From contig NZ_CP040094.1 in the NCBI RefSeq assembly GCF_013343235.1, positions 2,728,501 to 2,792,500 on the forward strand: a DNA stretch of 64,000 bases, written 5' to 3'. This DNA is from Nostoc sp. TCL240-02. GTDB lineage: Bacteria > Cyanobacteriota > Cyanobacteriia > Cyanobacteriales > Nostocaceae. Positions 25,119 to 30,408 of this stretch are shown here, one piece after another. A program made the position numbers and the translations under genes. Positions within the stretch are counted from its first letter, which is position 1. Every line of letters starts with the position of its first letter. The notes beneath the pieces were generated by a model. It did not search any database, had not been told where the DNA came from, and worked only from the letters and a program-made list of their open reading frames with translations.

Positions 25119-27680
25119 ATGAAAGTAGGACACATTGATACAGAAGTGGCGCGGCTAGAAGCCCTCCGCCAGTATCAAATTCTTGACACCGAACCTGAAG
25201 AAGCTTACGACAATCTTGCTCAGTTAGCGGCATTTATTTGTGATACTTCCATCTCTTTGGTAAATTTTATTGATGAAAACCGTCAATGGTTTAAGGCAAA
25301 AGTAGGTTTAGATGTATCAGAAATGCCCCGTTGTGTTGGGTTATCTTACCTTTGCCAAGAGCGGCGTAATGTTGTGGTGGTTCCTGATACCTTAGCTGAT
25401 GAAAATTTGGCCAATAATGCAGTAGTCACTGGCTATCCTTATGTACGGTTTTATGCAGGTGTACCCTTAATTACTCCCAAGGGAGATATGCTGGGAACTC
25501 TATGTGTACTTGACCAAGTTCCAAAAGAATTGAGCCAAAAACAAGTGGAGGCGCTTGTGGCTCTGAGTCACTTGATAATCGACCAACTAGAGCTTAGGCG
25601 TTATGTAACTGAGGTATCTCAAGTTACTGAAAAGCTCATGGCACACGAGCAAGCAGCCCGCGTCCAGTCTGAAGCTGCGAGAACCCACATCAATAATCTT
25701 CTTGAAAGCATTACTGATGGGTTTTTTGCCCTGGATAAAAAGTCGCGATTCACCTACATTAATGGTCAAGCAGAACGGCTGTTGCGAAAAAAACAAAATG
25801 AGCTTCTGGGTAAAAACATCTGGGAAGTGTTTCCAGAAATCATCGGCACAACATTTTACCATGAGTATCACAGGGCAATCATAGAACAGGTGAGTGTGGA
25901 ATTTGAGGAGTTTTATCCACCACTAAACTGCTGGCTTCAAGTCCATACCTATCCTGCCAAAGACGGCTTGTCTATTTATTTTCAAGACATTACTGAACGG
26001 CGGCGAACAGCAGAAGCACTACGAGAAAGTGAAGAACGTTGGCAATTAGCATTACATGGTAATAATGATGGCATTTGGGATTGGAACCTCAAGACTAATG
26101 AAGTGTTCTTCTCAACTCGGTGGAAGGAAATGCTCGGTTATAAAGACCACGAAGTTTCCAACGGTTGGGACGAATGGATAAAACAAATCCACCCCGATGA
26201 GCGAGATTGGGTACTTCAAGCCTTCCAAGACCACTTTGCCAAGAAAACACCGTTTTATGTTTGTGAATATCGAGTCCAGTGCCAAGACGGCAGCTATAAA
26301 TGGATTCTAGATCGAGGACAAGCACTTTGGGACGCATTGGGTGATATAGTTCGCATGGTGGGTTCTTATACAGATATCACAGATCGCAAGCGGGCAGATG
26401 AAGAATTAAAGCGGCAGAATTTGCGATCGCAATTATTTGCAGAAATCACCCTGAAAATTCGAGAATCTTTACAAATAAATGAAATTCTTCAAACCACAGT
26501 TACAGAAGTACAAAAATTACTACAAGCAGACCGAGTTTTAATTTTTCGACTGGAAGCTGATGGTTCGGGAACAGTAATACAAGAGGCAGTGCTACCTGGT
26601 TGGCCCGTAATTCTAGGAGAAAATATTCTCGATACCTGCTTTAAAGAAGAATATATCGAAAGATATCGCCAAGGAAGAGTCAGTGCCATGGAAGACGTTC
26701 AAGCTGCTCACATTCAACCATGCCATCGAGAATTTCTTCAGCAGTTTGCTGTCAGAGCTAACCTAATAGTACCGATTCTTGTTAGAGATAACATTTGGGG
26801 CTTATTGCTGGCTCATCAGTGTGCCGCACCTCGAAAGTGGAATAACTTTGAGATGGAGTTGTTAAAGCAACTAGCTAATCAAATTGGCATTGCTTTATCT
26901 CAAGCGCAACTATTAGAAAAAGAAACCCAGCAAAGTCAAGAACTCGTCCGTTCTAATGCGGAATTAGAACAGTTTGCTTATGTAGCTTCACATGACTTAC
27001 AAGAGCCGCTACGGATGGTAACAAGTTATTTACAACTACTAGAGCGAAGATACAAAAATCAACTTGATGACAATGCCGATCAGTTTATCACCTACGCAGT
27101 AGATGGGGCGCGGCGAATGCAGACCTTAATCAACGATTTGTTGAACTATTCCCGCGTCAGCACCCGTGGACAGCCATTTAAGTTAGTTGATTGTGATGTC
27201 ATCTTACAGCAGGCGATCGCTAATCTCCAAATTGCGATTGCAGATAGCAAGGCAATTGTCACTTACGATTCTCTACCTGAAGTGATGGCTGATACTACCC
27301 AACTAACACAAGTATTTCAAAACCTGATTGGCAACGCGATCAAATTTTGCCAGAATCAGCAGCCACAAATTCACATTGGGGTAGCCAAGCCAAATCCAAA
27401 TTCAGACGAAGAAAGTTTAAATTCTATACCATTGGCAGATGAATGGTTATTCTCGATACGTGATAATGGAATTGGTTTGGAATCCCAGTATGCAGAACGT
27501 ATTTTTATAATTTTTCAGCGTTTGCACGGTAGAGACAAGTATCCTGGTACTGGAATTGGTCTGGCAATTTGCAAGAAAATTATAGAACGGCACGGCGGCC
27601 GGATCTGGGTTGAATCGAAACCGGGTCAAGGCTCGACTTTCTACTTCACAATTCCAGATAGAGCAGGTAAGCAATCGTGA
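25119..27680 (+). CDS. Predicted DXCF cyanobacteriochrome histidine kinase (GAF-PAS-PAS-GAF-HisKA-HATPase)
   Basis: This 853-residue protein is soluble. Domains in order: GAF1 (about 20-160), PAS (180-300), PAS_3 (305-430; LHGNNDGIWDWN), GAF2 (445-605), HisKA with SHDLQEPLRMV (His625), HATPase_c (GTGIGLAICKKIIERHGG). GAF2 reads ENILDTCFKEEYIERYRQGR, then IQPCHREFLQQFAVRANL. It thus has both the DXCF motif (Asp505-Thr-Cys507-Phe508) and the canonical Cys535-His536 pair of bilin-binding cyanobacteriochromes. The 28-residue spacing equals that of TePixJ (Cys494/Cys522, from memory). It should bind phycocyanobilin or phycoviolobilin and act as a blue/green-type light sensor. Its stop overlaps a GTG of the next gene, and an Rcp1-like receiver follows, as for phytochromes. 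The photochemistry itself is inference. Confidence 0.85.
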   Translation: MKVGHIDTEVARLEALRQYQILDTEPEEAYDNLAQLAAFICDTSISLVNFIDENRQWFKAKVGLDVSEMPRCVGLSYLCQERRNVVVVPDTLADENLANNAVVTGYPYVRFYAGVPLITPKGDMLGTLCVLDQVPKELSQKQVEALVALSHLIIDQLELRRYVTEVSQVTEKLMAHEQAARVQSEAARTHINNLLESITDGFFALDKKSRFTYINGQAERLLRKKQNELLGKNIWEVFPEIIGTTFYHEYHRAIIEQVSVEFEEFYPPLNCWLQVHTYPAKDGLSIYFQDITERRRTAEALRESEERWQLALHGNNDGIWDWNLKTNEVFFSTRWKEMLGYKDHEVSNGWDEWIKQIHPDERDWVLQAFQDHFAKKTPFYVCEYRVQCQDGSYKWILDRGQALWDALGDIVRMVGSYTDITDRKRADEELKRQNLRSQLFAEITLKIRESLQINEILQTTVTEVQKLLQADRVLIFRLEADGSGTVIQEAVLPGWPVILGENILDTCFKEEYIERYRQGRVSAMEDVQAAHIQPCHREFLQQFAVRANLIVPILVRDNIWGLLLAHQCAAPRKWNNFEMELLKQLANQIGIALSQAQLLEKETQQSQELVRSNAELEQFAYVASHDLQEPLRMVTSYLQLLERRYKNQLDDNADQFITYAVDGARRMQTLINDLLNYSRVSTRGQPFKLVDCDVILQQAIANLQIAIADSKAIVTYDSLPEVMADTTQLTQVFQNLIGNAIKFCQNQQPQIHIGVAKPNPNSDEESLNSIPLADEWLFSIRDNGIGLESQYAERIFIIFQRLHGRDKYPGTGIGLAICKKIIERHGGRIWVESKPGQGSTFYFTIPDRAGKQS

Positions 27681-27697
27681 GCGTTATAACAGCGATT

Positions 27698-28123
27698 ATG
27701 CCTATTGAGGTTTTGTTAGTAGAGGACAATCCTGGCGATGCCCAACTTACACGCATCGCCTTAGAAGATAGTAAGATATCGATTCACCTCAACGTCGTCG
27801 AAGATGGTGTAGAGGCAATGGCATTCTTGCGAAAACAAGAAAAATATGTCAAAGCAGCCCATCCCGATATTGTGCTGCTCGATTTAAATCTCCCCAGAAA
27901 AGATGGGCGGGAGGTACTGGCAGAAATCAAAGGAGATGAAAAGCTCAAGCGAATTCCTGTGGTAATTTTGACGACTTCCCAAGCTGAAGAAGACATCCTC
28001 AAAGCCTATAATTTATGTGCAAACTGTTATATAACTAAGCCAGTAGATTTCGATCAATTCGTTAAAATTGTACAATCAATAGAAAATTTTTGGTTTGCGA
28101 TCGTAAAACTGCCACCGGAGTAG
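27698..28123 (+). CDS. Rcp1-like single-domain response regulator
   Basis: From the ATG at 27698 the protein has 141 residues. An in-frame GTG at 27677 overlaps the kinase stop codon and would add seven. The receiver carries VEDNPGDAQLTR, phospho-acceptor Asp62 (IVLLDLNLPRKDG), Thr in LTTSQAEEDI and Lys in ITKPVDFDQF. NPGDA with this length is the hallmark of Rcp1, the cognate regulator of cyanobacterial phytochrome Cph1. Such proteins lack an output domain and pass phosphate on or act by protein binding. Its place between a photoreceptor kinase and a second hybrid kinase fits a relay in light signalling. Confidence 0.9.
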   Translation: MPIEVLLVEDNPGDAQLTRIALEDSKISIHLNVVEDGVEAMAFLRKQEKYVKAAHPDIVLLDLNLPRKDGREVLAEIKGDEKLKRIPVVILTTSQAEEDILKAYNLCANCYITKPVDFDQFVKIVQSIENFWFAIVKLPPE

Positions 28124-28128
28124 TGGAA

Positions 28129-30408
28129 ATGGCAGGTAAAAATATTAAAGTCTTGTTAGTAGAAGATAACCCCGGTGATGTTTTTTTATTACAGGAGTTT
28201 TTAAAAGAAGTTACCACAGTTGTAGTTGATTTGATACCCGTTGAGCGGCTTTCGGAAGCAATCAACTACTTAGCAAAGGAAATTTTTGATGTGATTTTGC
28301 TAGACCTCTCGCTGCCAGATAGCCAGGGGTTAGAAAGCTTTGTCATCGCTCACCATCAGGCTAAAGCCACTCCCATAATTGTGCTGACGGGTATAGACGA
28401 TGAAACTTTGGCAATTAGGGCGATGCAAGAAGGAGCGCAGGATTATTTGGTGAAAGGGCAAGTAACTGGCGACTTGCTGGTGCGCTCCATGCGTTATGCT
28501 ATCGAACGTCAACGGGCAGACGAGGCATTGCGTCACAGTGAAGAGCGATTTCGAGTGGCCCTAAAAAACTCTCCCATCTTTGTCTACAACCAAGATATAG
28601 AGTTACGCTACACCTGGGTTTACAATCCCCCTTCTGGATTGACAGTTGAGGAAATATTAGGCAAACAAGACTTAGATATTATCCCAGGTGAAGATGCTCA
28701 ACGTCTTACCACAATTAAACGCGGGGTACTAACTACTGGCATAGGAACGCGAGAGGAAGTATCAATTACAATCAAAGATACAACTCGATATTACGATTTG
28801 ACAGTTGAGCCATTGCGGAATGAGTCGCAAGAAGTTGTGGGCGTGACGTGCGCCAGTATTGATATTAGCGAAAAACAAGCTGCGCTACGCGATCGCAAAT
28901 TGGCAGAAGAAAAAATCCGCGAACAAGCAGCATTACTCGATGTCACCACTGATGCCATTTGCGTGCGAGATTTAAACAATCAAATTATTTTCTGGAACAA
29001 AGGCGCAGAAACACTTTACGGCTGGCAAGCTGAAGAAGCTTGGGGCAAAAATGCTAGTGAGCTTTTGTTTGACGAACCTTCACCAGAAATCGAAGCGGCT
29101 CTTTTACAAGCTACTAGTAAAGGTAAGTGGCAGGGCGAGTTAACTAAACTTACCAAAGCTGACAAAGAAATCCTTGTTGCTAGTCGCTGGAGTTTGGTGT
29201 ACGGCGAACAAGGAAAACCAAAAGCGATTCTCACCGTTGACACAGATATTACCGATAAAAAACATCTAGAAGCCCAATTATTTCGCGCCCAACGCTTGGA
29301 AAGTATTGGCACTCTAGCTAGTGGCATTGCTCACGACCTCAACAATATCTTGACACCTATTCTGGCAGGAGCGCAACTTTTACCACTCAAATTTCCTGAT
29401 GCAGATGAGCGGACTCGCCATCTACTGGAAATTTTGGAAATCAACGCTAGACGCGGGGCAGATTTAGTCAAACAAGTGTTGTCATTTGCACGGGGTGTAG
29501 AAGGAAAGCGTATCACTTTGCAACTCAGACATATAATTGTGGAAGTTGCCAAGATTCTTAAAGAGACATTTCCCAAATCCATACAAATCAGCACAGATGT
29601 CCTGCAAGATTTGTGGATGGTTTCTGGAGATAGTACCCAACTACATCAAGTATTGATGAACCTCTGCGTTAATGCCCGCGATGCAATGCCAAATGGCGGT
29701 AATTTGAGCATCTATGCTGAAAATCTGTTGATTGACGAAAATTATGCCCGCATGAACCTGGAAGCCAAAGAGGGGCCTTATATAGTAATTACTGTCTCCG
29801 ATACTGGAGTTGGGATTCCCAAAGAAATCTTAGATAGAATTTTCGAGCCATTTTTTACCACAAAAGATGTCGGAAAAGGCACAGGGTTAGGACTTTCCAC
29901 CGTGCTGGGAATTATTAAAAGCCACGGTGGTTTTGTGAATGTCTATAGCGAACTGGGAAGCGGCACTAGCTTTAAGATTTACTTGCCAGCAGTGGAGGGA
30001 ATGGAAACATTTACTCCAGAAGAATCGCCAGCACAGAAAGGACATGGAGAATTGATTTTGATTGTGGATGATGAAGTTGCTATTCAAGAGATTACGAGGA
30101 CATCGCTAGAAGCTCACAACTACAAAACCCTCATTGCCAATGATGGCATTGAAGCGATCGCGCTATACGCTCAAAACCGGGATAAAATTAGTGCCGTACT
30201 GATGGATATTATGCTACCTTTACTCGATGGTTTAACTGCCATCCGTACTCTGCAAAAAATTAACCCCAAAGTCAGAGTTATTGCCAGCAGTGGACTTATG
30301 TCTGACAATAAGCTTAGTGCAGTAGCTGCTATTGGTGTGAATACGTTTTTGGTAAAGCCCTACACTGTCAACGAGTTATTGCTTTCTTTACAAAAAATCC
30401 TATCGTAA
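28129..30408 (+). CDS. Hybrid histidine kinase (REC-PAS-PAS-HisKA-HATPase-REC)
   Basis: I choose the ATG at 28129, five bases after the receiver gene stop, over a TTG at 28090 inside that gene. This gives 759 residues. An N-terminal receiver (VEDNPGDVFLLQ; Asp59) is followed by two PAS modules (about 140-270 and 275-385). HisKA has GIAHDLNNILTPI (His402), HATPase_c has GTGLGLSTVLGIIKSHGG, and a C-terminal receiver carries Asp693 (AVLMDIMLPLLDG). The N-terminal receiver can accept phosphate from the upstream photoreceptor kinase; the C-terminal one passes it on. It completes a three-gene relay: kinase, single receiver, hybrid kinase. No DNA-binding output gene is adjacent. Confidence 0.92.
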   Translation: MAGKNIKVLLVEDNPGDVFLLQEFLKEVTTVVVDLIPVERLSEAINYLAKEIFDVILLDLSLPDSQGLESFVIAHHQAKATPIIVLTGIDDETLAIRAMQEGAQDYLVKGQVTGDLLVRSMRYAIERQRADEALRHSEERFRVALKNSPIFVYNQDIELRYTWVYNPPSGLTVEEILGKQDLDIIPGEDAQRLTTIKRGVLTTGIGTREEVSITIKDTTRYYDLTVEPLRNESQEVVGVTCASIDISEKQAALRDRKLAEEKIREQAALLDVTTDAICVRDLNNQIIFWNKGAETLYGWQAEEAWGKNASELLFDEPSPEIEAALLQATSKGKWQGELTKLTKADKEILVASRWSLVYGEQGKPKAILTVDTDITDKKHLEAQLFRAQRLESIGTLASGIAHDLNNILTPILAGAQLLPLKFPDADERTRHLLEILEINARRGADLVKQVLSFARGVEGKRITLQLRHIIVEVAKILKETFPKSIQISTDVLQDLWMVSGDSTQLHQVLMNLCVNARDAMPNGGNLSIYAENLLIDENYARMNLEAKEGPYIVITVSDTGVGIPKEILDRIFEPFFTTKDVGKGTGLGLSTVLGIIKSHGGFVNVYSELGSGTSFKIYLPAVEGMETFTPEESPAQKGHGELILIVDDEVAIQEITRTSLEAHNYKTLIANDGIEAIALYAQNRDKISAVLMDIMLPLLDGLTAIRTLQKINPKVRVIASSGLMSDNKLSAVAAIGVNTFLVKPYTVNELLLSLQKILS

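Follow-up and report, generated by a model that had tools for sequence, protein, structure and literature searches.

The two described systems that bear most directly on the locus analysed here are RcaE (7ckv, 8k9o), a green/red cyanobacteriochrome (CBCR) of chromatic acclimation, and TePixJ (3vv4, 4fof), a blue/green CBCR of the DXCF type. In DXCF domains, according to PMC11284453, a second cysteine bonds to C10 of the bilin and gives a blue-absorbing dark state, and typical members convert phycocyanobilin (PCB) to phycoviolobilin (PVB). PMC9415938 refers to a protochromic triad, gives CcaS and RcaE a Leu instead of the His beside the bilin-attaching Cys, and ascribes to that His a role in thioether cleavage. 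Other colour cycles are also on record: a table in PMC4469895 enters NpF4973 as a DXCF domain with PCB and 435/600 nm, and Oscil6304_2705 is presented in PMC10296107 as a blue/orange switch that loses its Cys bond, for which a deprotonated green intermediate is proposed.

The window, a 64,000-nucleotide stretch of the Nostoc sp. TCL240-02 genome (7,887,247 bases, one contig), encodes a sensor histidine kinase followed by two further signalling genes (Table 1). Pfam assigns GAF (two stretches), PAS, PAS_3, HisKA and HATPase_c domains to the kinase, and an NCBIfam scan gives it no specific name, the listed rows lying far below their cut-offs except for a generic PAS model. A sequence-only reading of this DNA had called the second GAF domain (GAF2) a DXCF-type CBCR, and translation of the open reading frame places D505-T-C507-F and C535-H536 where it had claimed, with ERYRQGR at residues 514-520 and VRANLIVPIL at 545-554. 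The spacing from Cys507 to Cys535 is 28 residues, the same as in the TePixJ chain. GAF1 had been described as devoid of these motifs, and a scan of the whole protein for D-x-C-F and Cys-His/Tyr bears this out, since DTCF and CH each occur once, both within GAF2. By motif, GAF2 joins the known DXCF CBCRs.

Table 1. Features of the kinase locus, in window coordinates.
Feature	Position	Strand	Residues, content or basis
Sensor histidine kinase, 853 aa	25119..27680	+	Order GAF1 - PAS - PAS_3 - GAF2 (CBCR) - HisKA - HATPase_c
GAF1, approximate	25173..25613	+	Residues 19-165; second Pfam GAF stretch; without DXCF and Cys-His
GAF2, bilin-type GAF	26475..26897	+	Residues 453-593; best PF01590 stretch, trees
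DXCF motif, Asp505-Thr506-Cys507-Phe508	26631..26642	+	Cys507 would supply the second (C10) thiol
Predicted bilin-attachment Cys535, with His536	26721..26726	+	Translation of the open reading frame; 55-row alignment
Asn548, equivalent to the RcaE triad Lys	26760..26762	+	Asn in 55/55 relatives
HisKA and HATPase_c	26964..27659	+	Residues 616-680 and 725-847; Pfam
Rcp1/RcpA-like single-domain response regulator	27677..28123	+	Overlaps the kinase stop by 4 bases
Hybrid kinase	28090..30408	+	REC - PAS - PAS - HisKA - HATPase_c - REC; third gene, conserved

Comparison with known GAF domains places GAF2 among CBCR domains, apart from other GAFs. The best solved relative is 8k9o (E 4.6e-51), a histidine kinase chain with the RcaE sequence in the alignment, and further matches are PPHK (6oap, 1.1e-46), RcaE (7ckv, 1e-41), miRFP670nano (6mgh, 2.6e-37) and TePixJ (3vv4, 6.6e-35). 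Within one alignment, identity to GAF2 is 53.5% for RcaE (over 172 positions), 47.2% for miRFP670nano, 47.0% for PPHK, 41.6% for Slr1393g3, 37.9% for TePixJ, 36.1% for AnPixJg2 and 35.5% for NpR6012g4. A 192-row GAF tree was built from seven solved references (no named CcaS row among them), the window's domain, 13 orthologues, 33 host rows and 138 representatives drawn from 362 GAFs of 120 proteins; the two groupings that contain the window's GAF2, one of 33 rows (97) and one of 34 (99), include RcaE and exclude the six other references. With the motif columns removed, a midpoint-rooted tree of 89 chosen rows, several of them long, joins the window type and RcaE in a 72-row clade (96/92). These placements indicate that GAF2 descends from the RcaE green/red lineage, not from the TePixJ lineage, and the kinship with TePixJ implied by the sequence-only reading is set aside. 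Its call of a DXCF-type CBCR in a histidine kinase, on the other hand, agrees with the motif, the spacing, the place among CBCR GAFs and the host's bilin-pathway genes, and on these sequence grounds GAF2 is classed as a DXCF-type CBCR domain. A TePixJ-type blue/green sensor, in which PCB becomes PVB and the cycle runs at about 430 / 530 nm, is possible but unlikely: the DXCF and CH motifs stand at TePixJ's distance and PVB is the bilin bound by typical DXCF domains (PMC11284453), whereas identity and both trees separate GAF2 from TePixJ. The blue/green colour is still conceivable, since lineage does not settle PVB formation.

The pocket of GAF2 differs from that of its closest solved relative. 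The protochromic triad of RcaE, reportedly described by Hirose et al. in 2013, consists of Glu217, Leu249 and Lys261, and in the RcaE sequence of our alignment just these distances (32 and 12) separate the QEVF Glu, the Leu that follows the Cys and KAK's second Lys. The corresponding sites in the window's kinase are 506, 536 and 548, where GAF2 has Thr506, His536 and Asn548. As regards the features of an RcaE/CcaS-type sensor, GAF2 has no Glu/Leu/Lys triad and possesses the DXCF cysteine, invariant in all 55 relatives. An RcaE-like protochromic green/red sensor in which this cysteine has no role would suit the position of GAF2 in the RcaE clade, but with all three triad sites different and Cys507 never replaced, we consider it very improbable.

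Conservation was assessed in 55 of 77 related loci, those whose GAF2 row spanned 100 or more aligned residues; the other 22 yielded no such row and are left uncounted. By their titles, all 55 are Nostocales. Cys507, Phe508, Cys535 and Asn548 are identical in every row, 54 rows have Asp505 and 53 have His536, against a mean identity to the window's GAF2 of 0.81 over 188 positions, and the conservation of the motifs exceeds chance. The sole His536 exceptions are two Brasilonema loci, one with Tyr536 (L047) and one with Tyr536 and Glu505 (L051). Residue 506 is Pro in 40 of the 55 rows and acidic in none; P0093, an orthologue beyond this set, combines Glu506 with His536 and Asn548. According to Pfam, the N-terminal modules vary among six orthologues (no PAS match in L048, one PAS region in L041, L030 and L047, several in L036 and L054), and the GAF2-HisKA-HATPase_c portion is constant.

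The host genome contains two haem oxygenase genes and three genes for bilin reductases, of which two are neighbours, a set that fits PcyA plus a PebA-PebB pair. When the RcaE GAF domain was compared with this genome, GAF2 was the top match (54%, E 6.2e-51) among 17 matches at E <= 1e-30, and the x-Glu-Val-Phe plus Cys-Leu pattern occurred in none of 36 further host GAF rows (from 30 of 59 matches); on both counts, no RcaE-type sensor was seen in the host. The adjacent reductase genes (G000:C1:2142929-2144426), perhaps pebA-pebB, lie in a genome in which no such sensor was seen. The two host paralogues closest to GAF2, 63% and 62% identical to it, have D-x-C-F and Cys-His intact (L103/L081, a 1375-aa frame, and L082, a 1118-aa frame). 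The next two, L083 and L084, are long hybrid kinases of the same clade in which both bilin cysteines are lost, so the bilin is dispensable in some relatives. These two lend something to the idea that GAF2 itself no longer binds bilin and that its cysteines have taken on a different task, redox sensing for example, or none; we judge this improbable, the residues of bilin chemistry being kept in all 55 loci (both cysteines and Phe508) or nearly all of them (Asp505 in 54, His536 in 53). As a separate observation, the GAF of host protein L108 is nearly identical over its full length to the solved NpR6012g4 (E 1e-112), which suggests a close kin of Nostoc punctiforme.

The gene that follows the kinase encodes a protein with a single REC domain. 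Its top solved match is 5te9 (E 3.9e-46), named only as a response regulator receiver protein, and RcpA (1k68, E 1.3e-42) and Rcp1 (1i3c and 1jlk, E 1.6e-40) rank just behind, in keeping with the earlier description of this neighbour as Rcp1-like. The listed start is GTG, with an ATG 21 bases further on; the TTG start listed for the hybrid kinase may be too early. The Rcp1-like gene lies 3' of the kinase in 53 of the 55 loci (exceptions L022, at a contig end, and L040, where the kinase frame is split), as does the hybrid kinase downstream in 53/55 (exceptions L022 and L031). In 34 of the 55, hisG is located no more than 4 kb upstream; some of the others have short upstream flanks. Gene order and kinship together suggest phosphotransfer from the kinase to the Rcp1-like regulator.

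We put at roughly three in four the probability that GAF2 is a bilin-binding dual-cysteine (DXCF) CBCR of RcaE descent that absorbs blue light in the dark state, yields a product that is orange or green, and controls both the kinase and the Rcp1-like regulator. The motifs, their conservation, the lineage, the gene order and the bilin-pathway genes are what the data show; the binding of bilin, the colours, the direction of kinase control and the partner are what we infer. PCB would be attached at Cys535, and in the dark 15Z state Cys507 would add to C10 of the bilin, shortening the conjugation and producing a blue-absorbing form. Blue light would isomerise the 15,16 bond, upon which the Cys507 bond would break, probably with help from His536. 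The photoproduct would be orange if PCB is kept and green if PCB is converted to PVB, and light of the photoproduct's colour would drive GAF2 back. The signal would pass from GAF2 through a helix to HisKA and the kinase, and then as phosphate to the regulator encoded next door, the downstream hybrid kinase probably acting in the same pathway. A blue-absorbing dark state is still the likeliest reading. For the product, a blue/orange cycle on unconverted PCB appears at least as likely as blue/green and is slightly favoured, because the descent of GAF2 adjoins a PCB-using green/red sensor; blue/green, which requires conversion of PCB to PVB, is not the obvious choice. The part of PMC11284453 available offers no reliable sequence predictor of that conversion.

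Comparison of the lineage at sites 506, 536 and 548 reveals three main pocket states. The alignment comprises 164 rows: the window's GAF2, RcaE, and the 162 of 664 GAFs (227 proteins) that best matched this lineage's anchors. The window type has D-x-C-F, Cys-His and Asn, and the RcaE type has x-E-V-F and near variants, Cys-Leu and Lys. The third, intermediate state has D-D-C-F or D-E-C-F, Cys-Leu and Lys, and so bears the second cysteine together with the whole triad (11 + 3 rows). Within a 71-row clade, an acidic residue 506 accompanies Lys548 in 42 rows, a non-acidic one accompanies Asn548 in 23 and 6 are otherwise; these pocket-state counts are not natural frequencies, because the selection took in many distant rows fitting no class and a second protein search was seeded with an intermediate. 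The intermediates include P0207, P0133, P0156, P0067 (residues 359-547), P0225, P0196, P0085, P0096 and P0139, sister kinases whose kinase modules are 62-67% identical to the window's over ~240 aa; these retain the second Cys and have Asp-Leu-Lys at the triad sites. Further intermediates are P0220 and P0221, with kinase modules at 42-44%, as well as P0226 and P0213. Among window-type proteins, the kinase module of P0149 is 63% identical to the window's and that of P0189 29%; both P0149 (864 aa) and P0189 (1004 aa) are listed with a PHY domain (PF00360) and a window-type DXCF GAF in one kinase. P0082 retains the second Cys but has a Trp at the canonical Cys position, which is taken as decay. 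When 292 genomes of the phylum were searched with an intermediate GAF (DDCF, Cys-Leu, Lys) at E <= 1e-72, 7 genomes gave a match, all of the window type (D-x-C-F, Cys-His, Asn), with no intermediate seen; the intermediate state was seen among database proteins only.

On the motif-free tree, the minimum number of changes is 4 at site 536, 5 at site 548 and 9 at site 507. Monophyly of the triad rows (48 rows) is weakly rejected at p-AU 0.025, and so is that of the window-type rows (22 rows) at p-AU 0.041, both values being marginal and both groups having been named after the tree was seen. An earlier test of a clade of 45 Lys548 rows (p-AU 4.0e-9) was dropped, as it omitted three nested rows. 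Co-change of pocket sites on independent branches amounts to 1-2 supported pairs, too few to reach significance. Repeated switching between photocycles is likely from these reconstructions. We propose only tentatively the fuller account, in which dual-cysteine (DXCF) sensing and protochromic green/red sensing replaced one another more than once within one histidine-kinase family via sites 506, 536 and 548, with living intermediates that bear the second Cys and the triad. If that account holds, the window type would be a dual-Cys sensor re-derived within the chromatic-acclimation lineage, or a remnant at its base, and the intermediates would be expected to have a photocycle of mixed blue/green/red type. 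The sister kinases, distinct at three known colour-tuning sites and alike in the second Cys and in a 62-67% identical kinase module, offer a natural experiment on how Cys-adduct and proton-transfer photocycles interconvert, and on which arose first. Among the open-licence papers searched, a set outside which several main CBCR papers fall, neither this kinase nor the DXCF-plus-triad intermediates were found described. The kinase itself is a well-conserved and fairly ordinary photoreceptor; the interesting part is its lineage, an informative branch of the family in which a conserved DXCF sensor kinase is nested within the line of descent of a sensor for chromatic acclimation.

Set against the described systems, GAF2 is nearest to RcaE by identity, shares its clade and, like it, belongs to a histidine kinase. 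RcaE, however, has Gln-Glu-Val-Phe and Cys-Leu, with the protochromic triad and no second Cys, whereas GAF2 is without the triad. With TePixJ, GAF2 has in common the DXCF motif, Cys-His and the 28-residue spacing, but TePixJ lies in another clade and has a chemotaxis-type output where a kinase is found here. Oscil6304_2705 is likened to GAF2 by behaviour and not by sequence, its two-Cys blue/orange cycle and green intermediate being the behaviour expected of GAF2. NpF4973 of Nostoc punctiforme, a PCB-binding DXCF domain from the same genus, is likened by its table entry, again not by sequence; since neither protein was placed on the tree, the analogy of colour is not one of descent. The match of the neighbouring regulator to Rcp1 and RcpA spans nearly the whole protein, yet those are phytochrome response regulators, and here the regulator gene adjoins a CBCR kinase, not a phytochrome.
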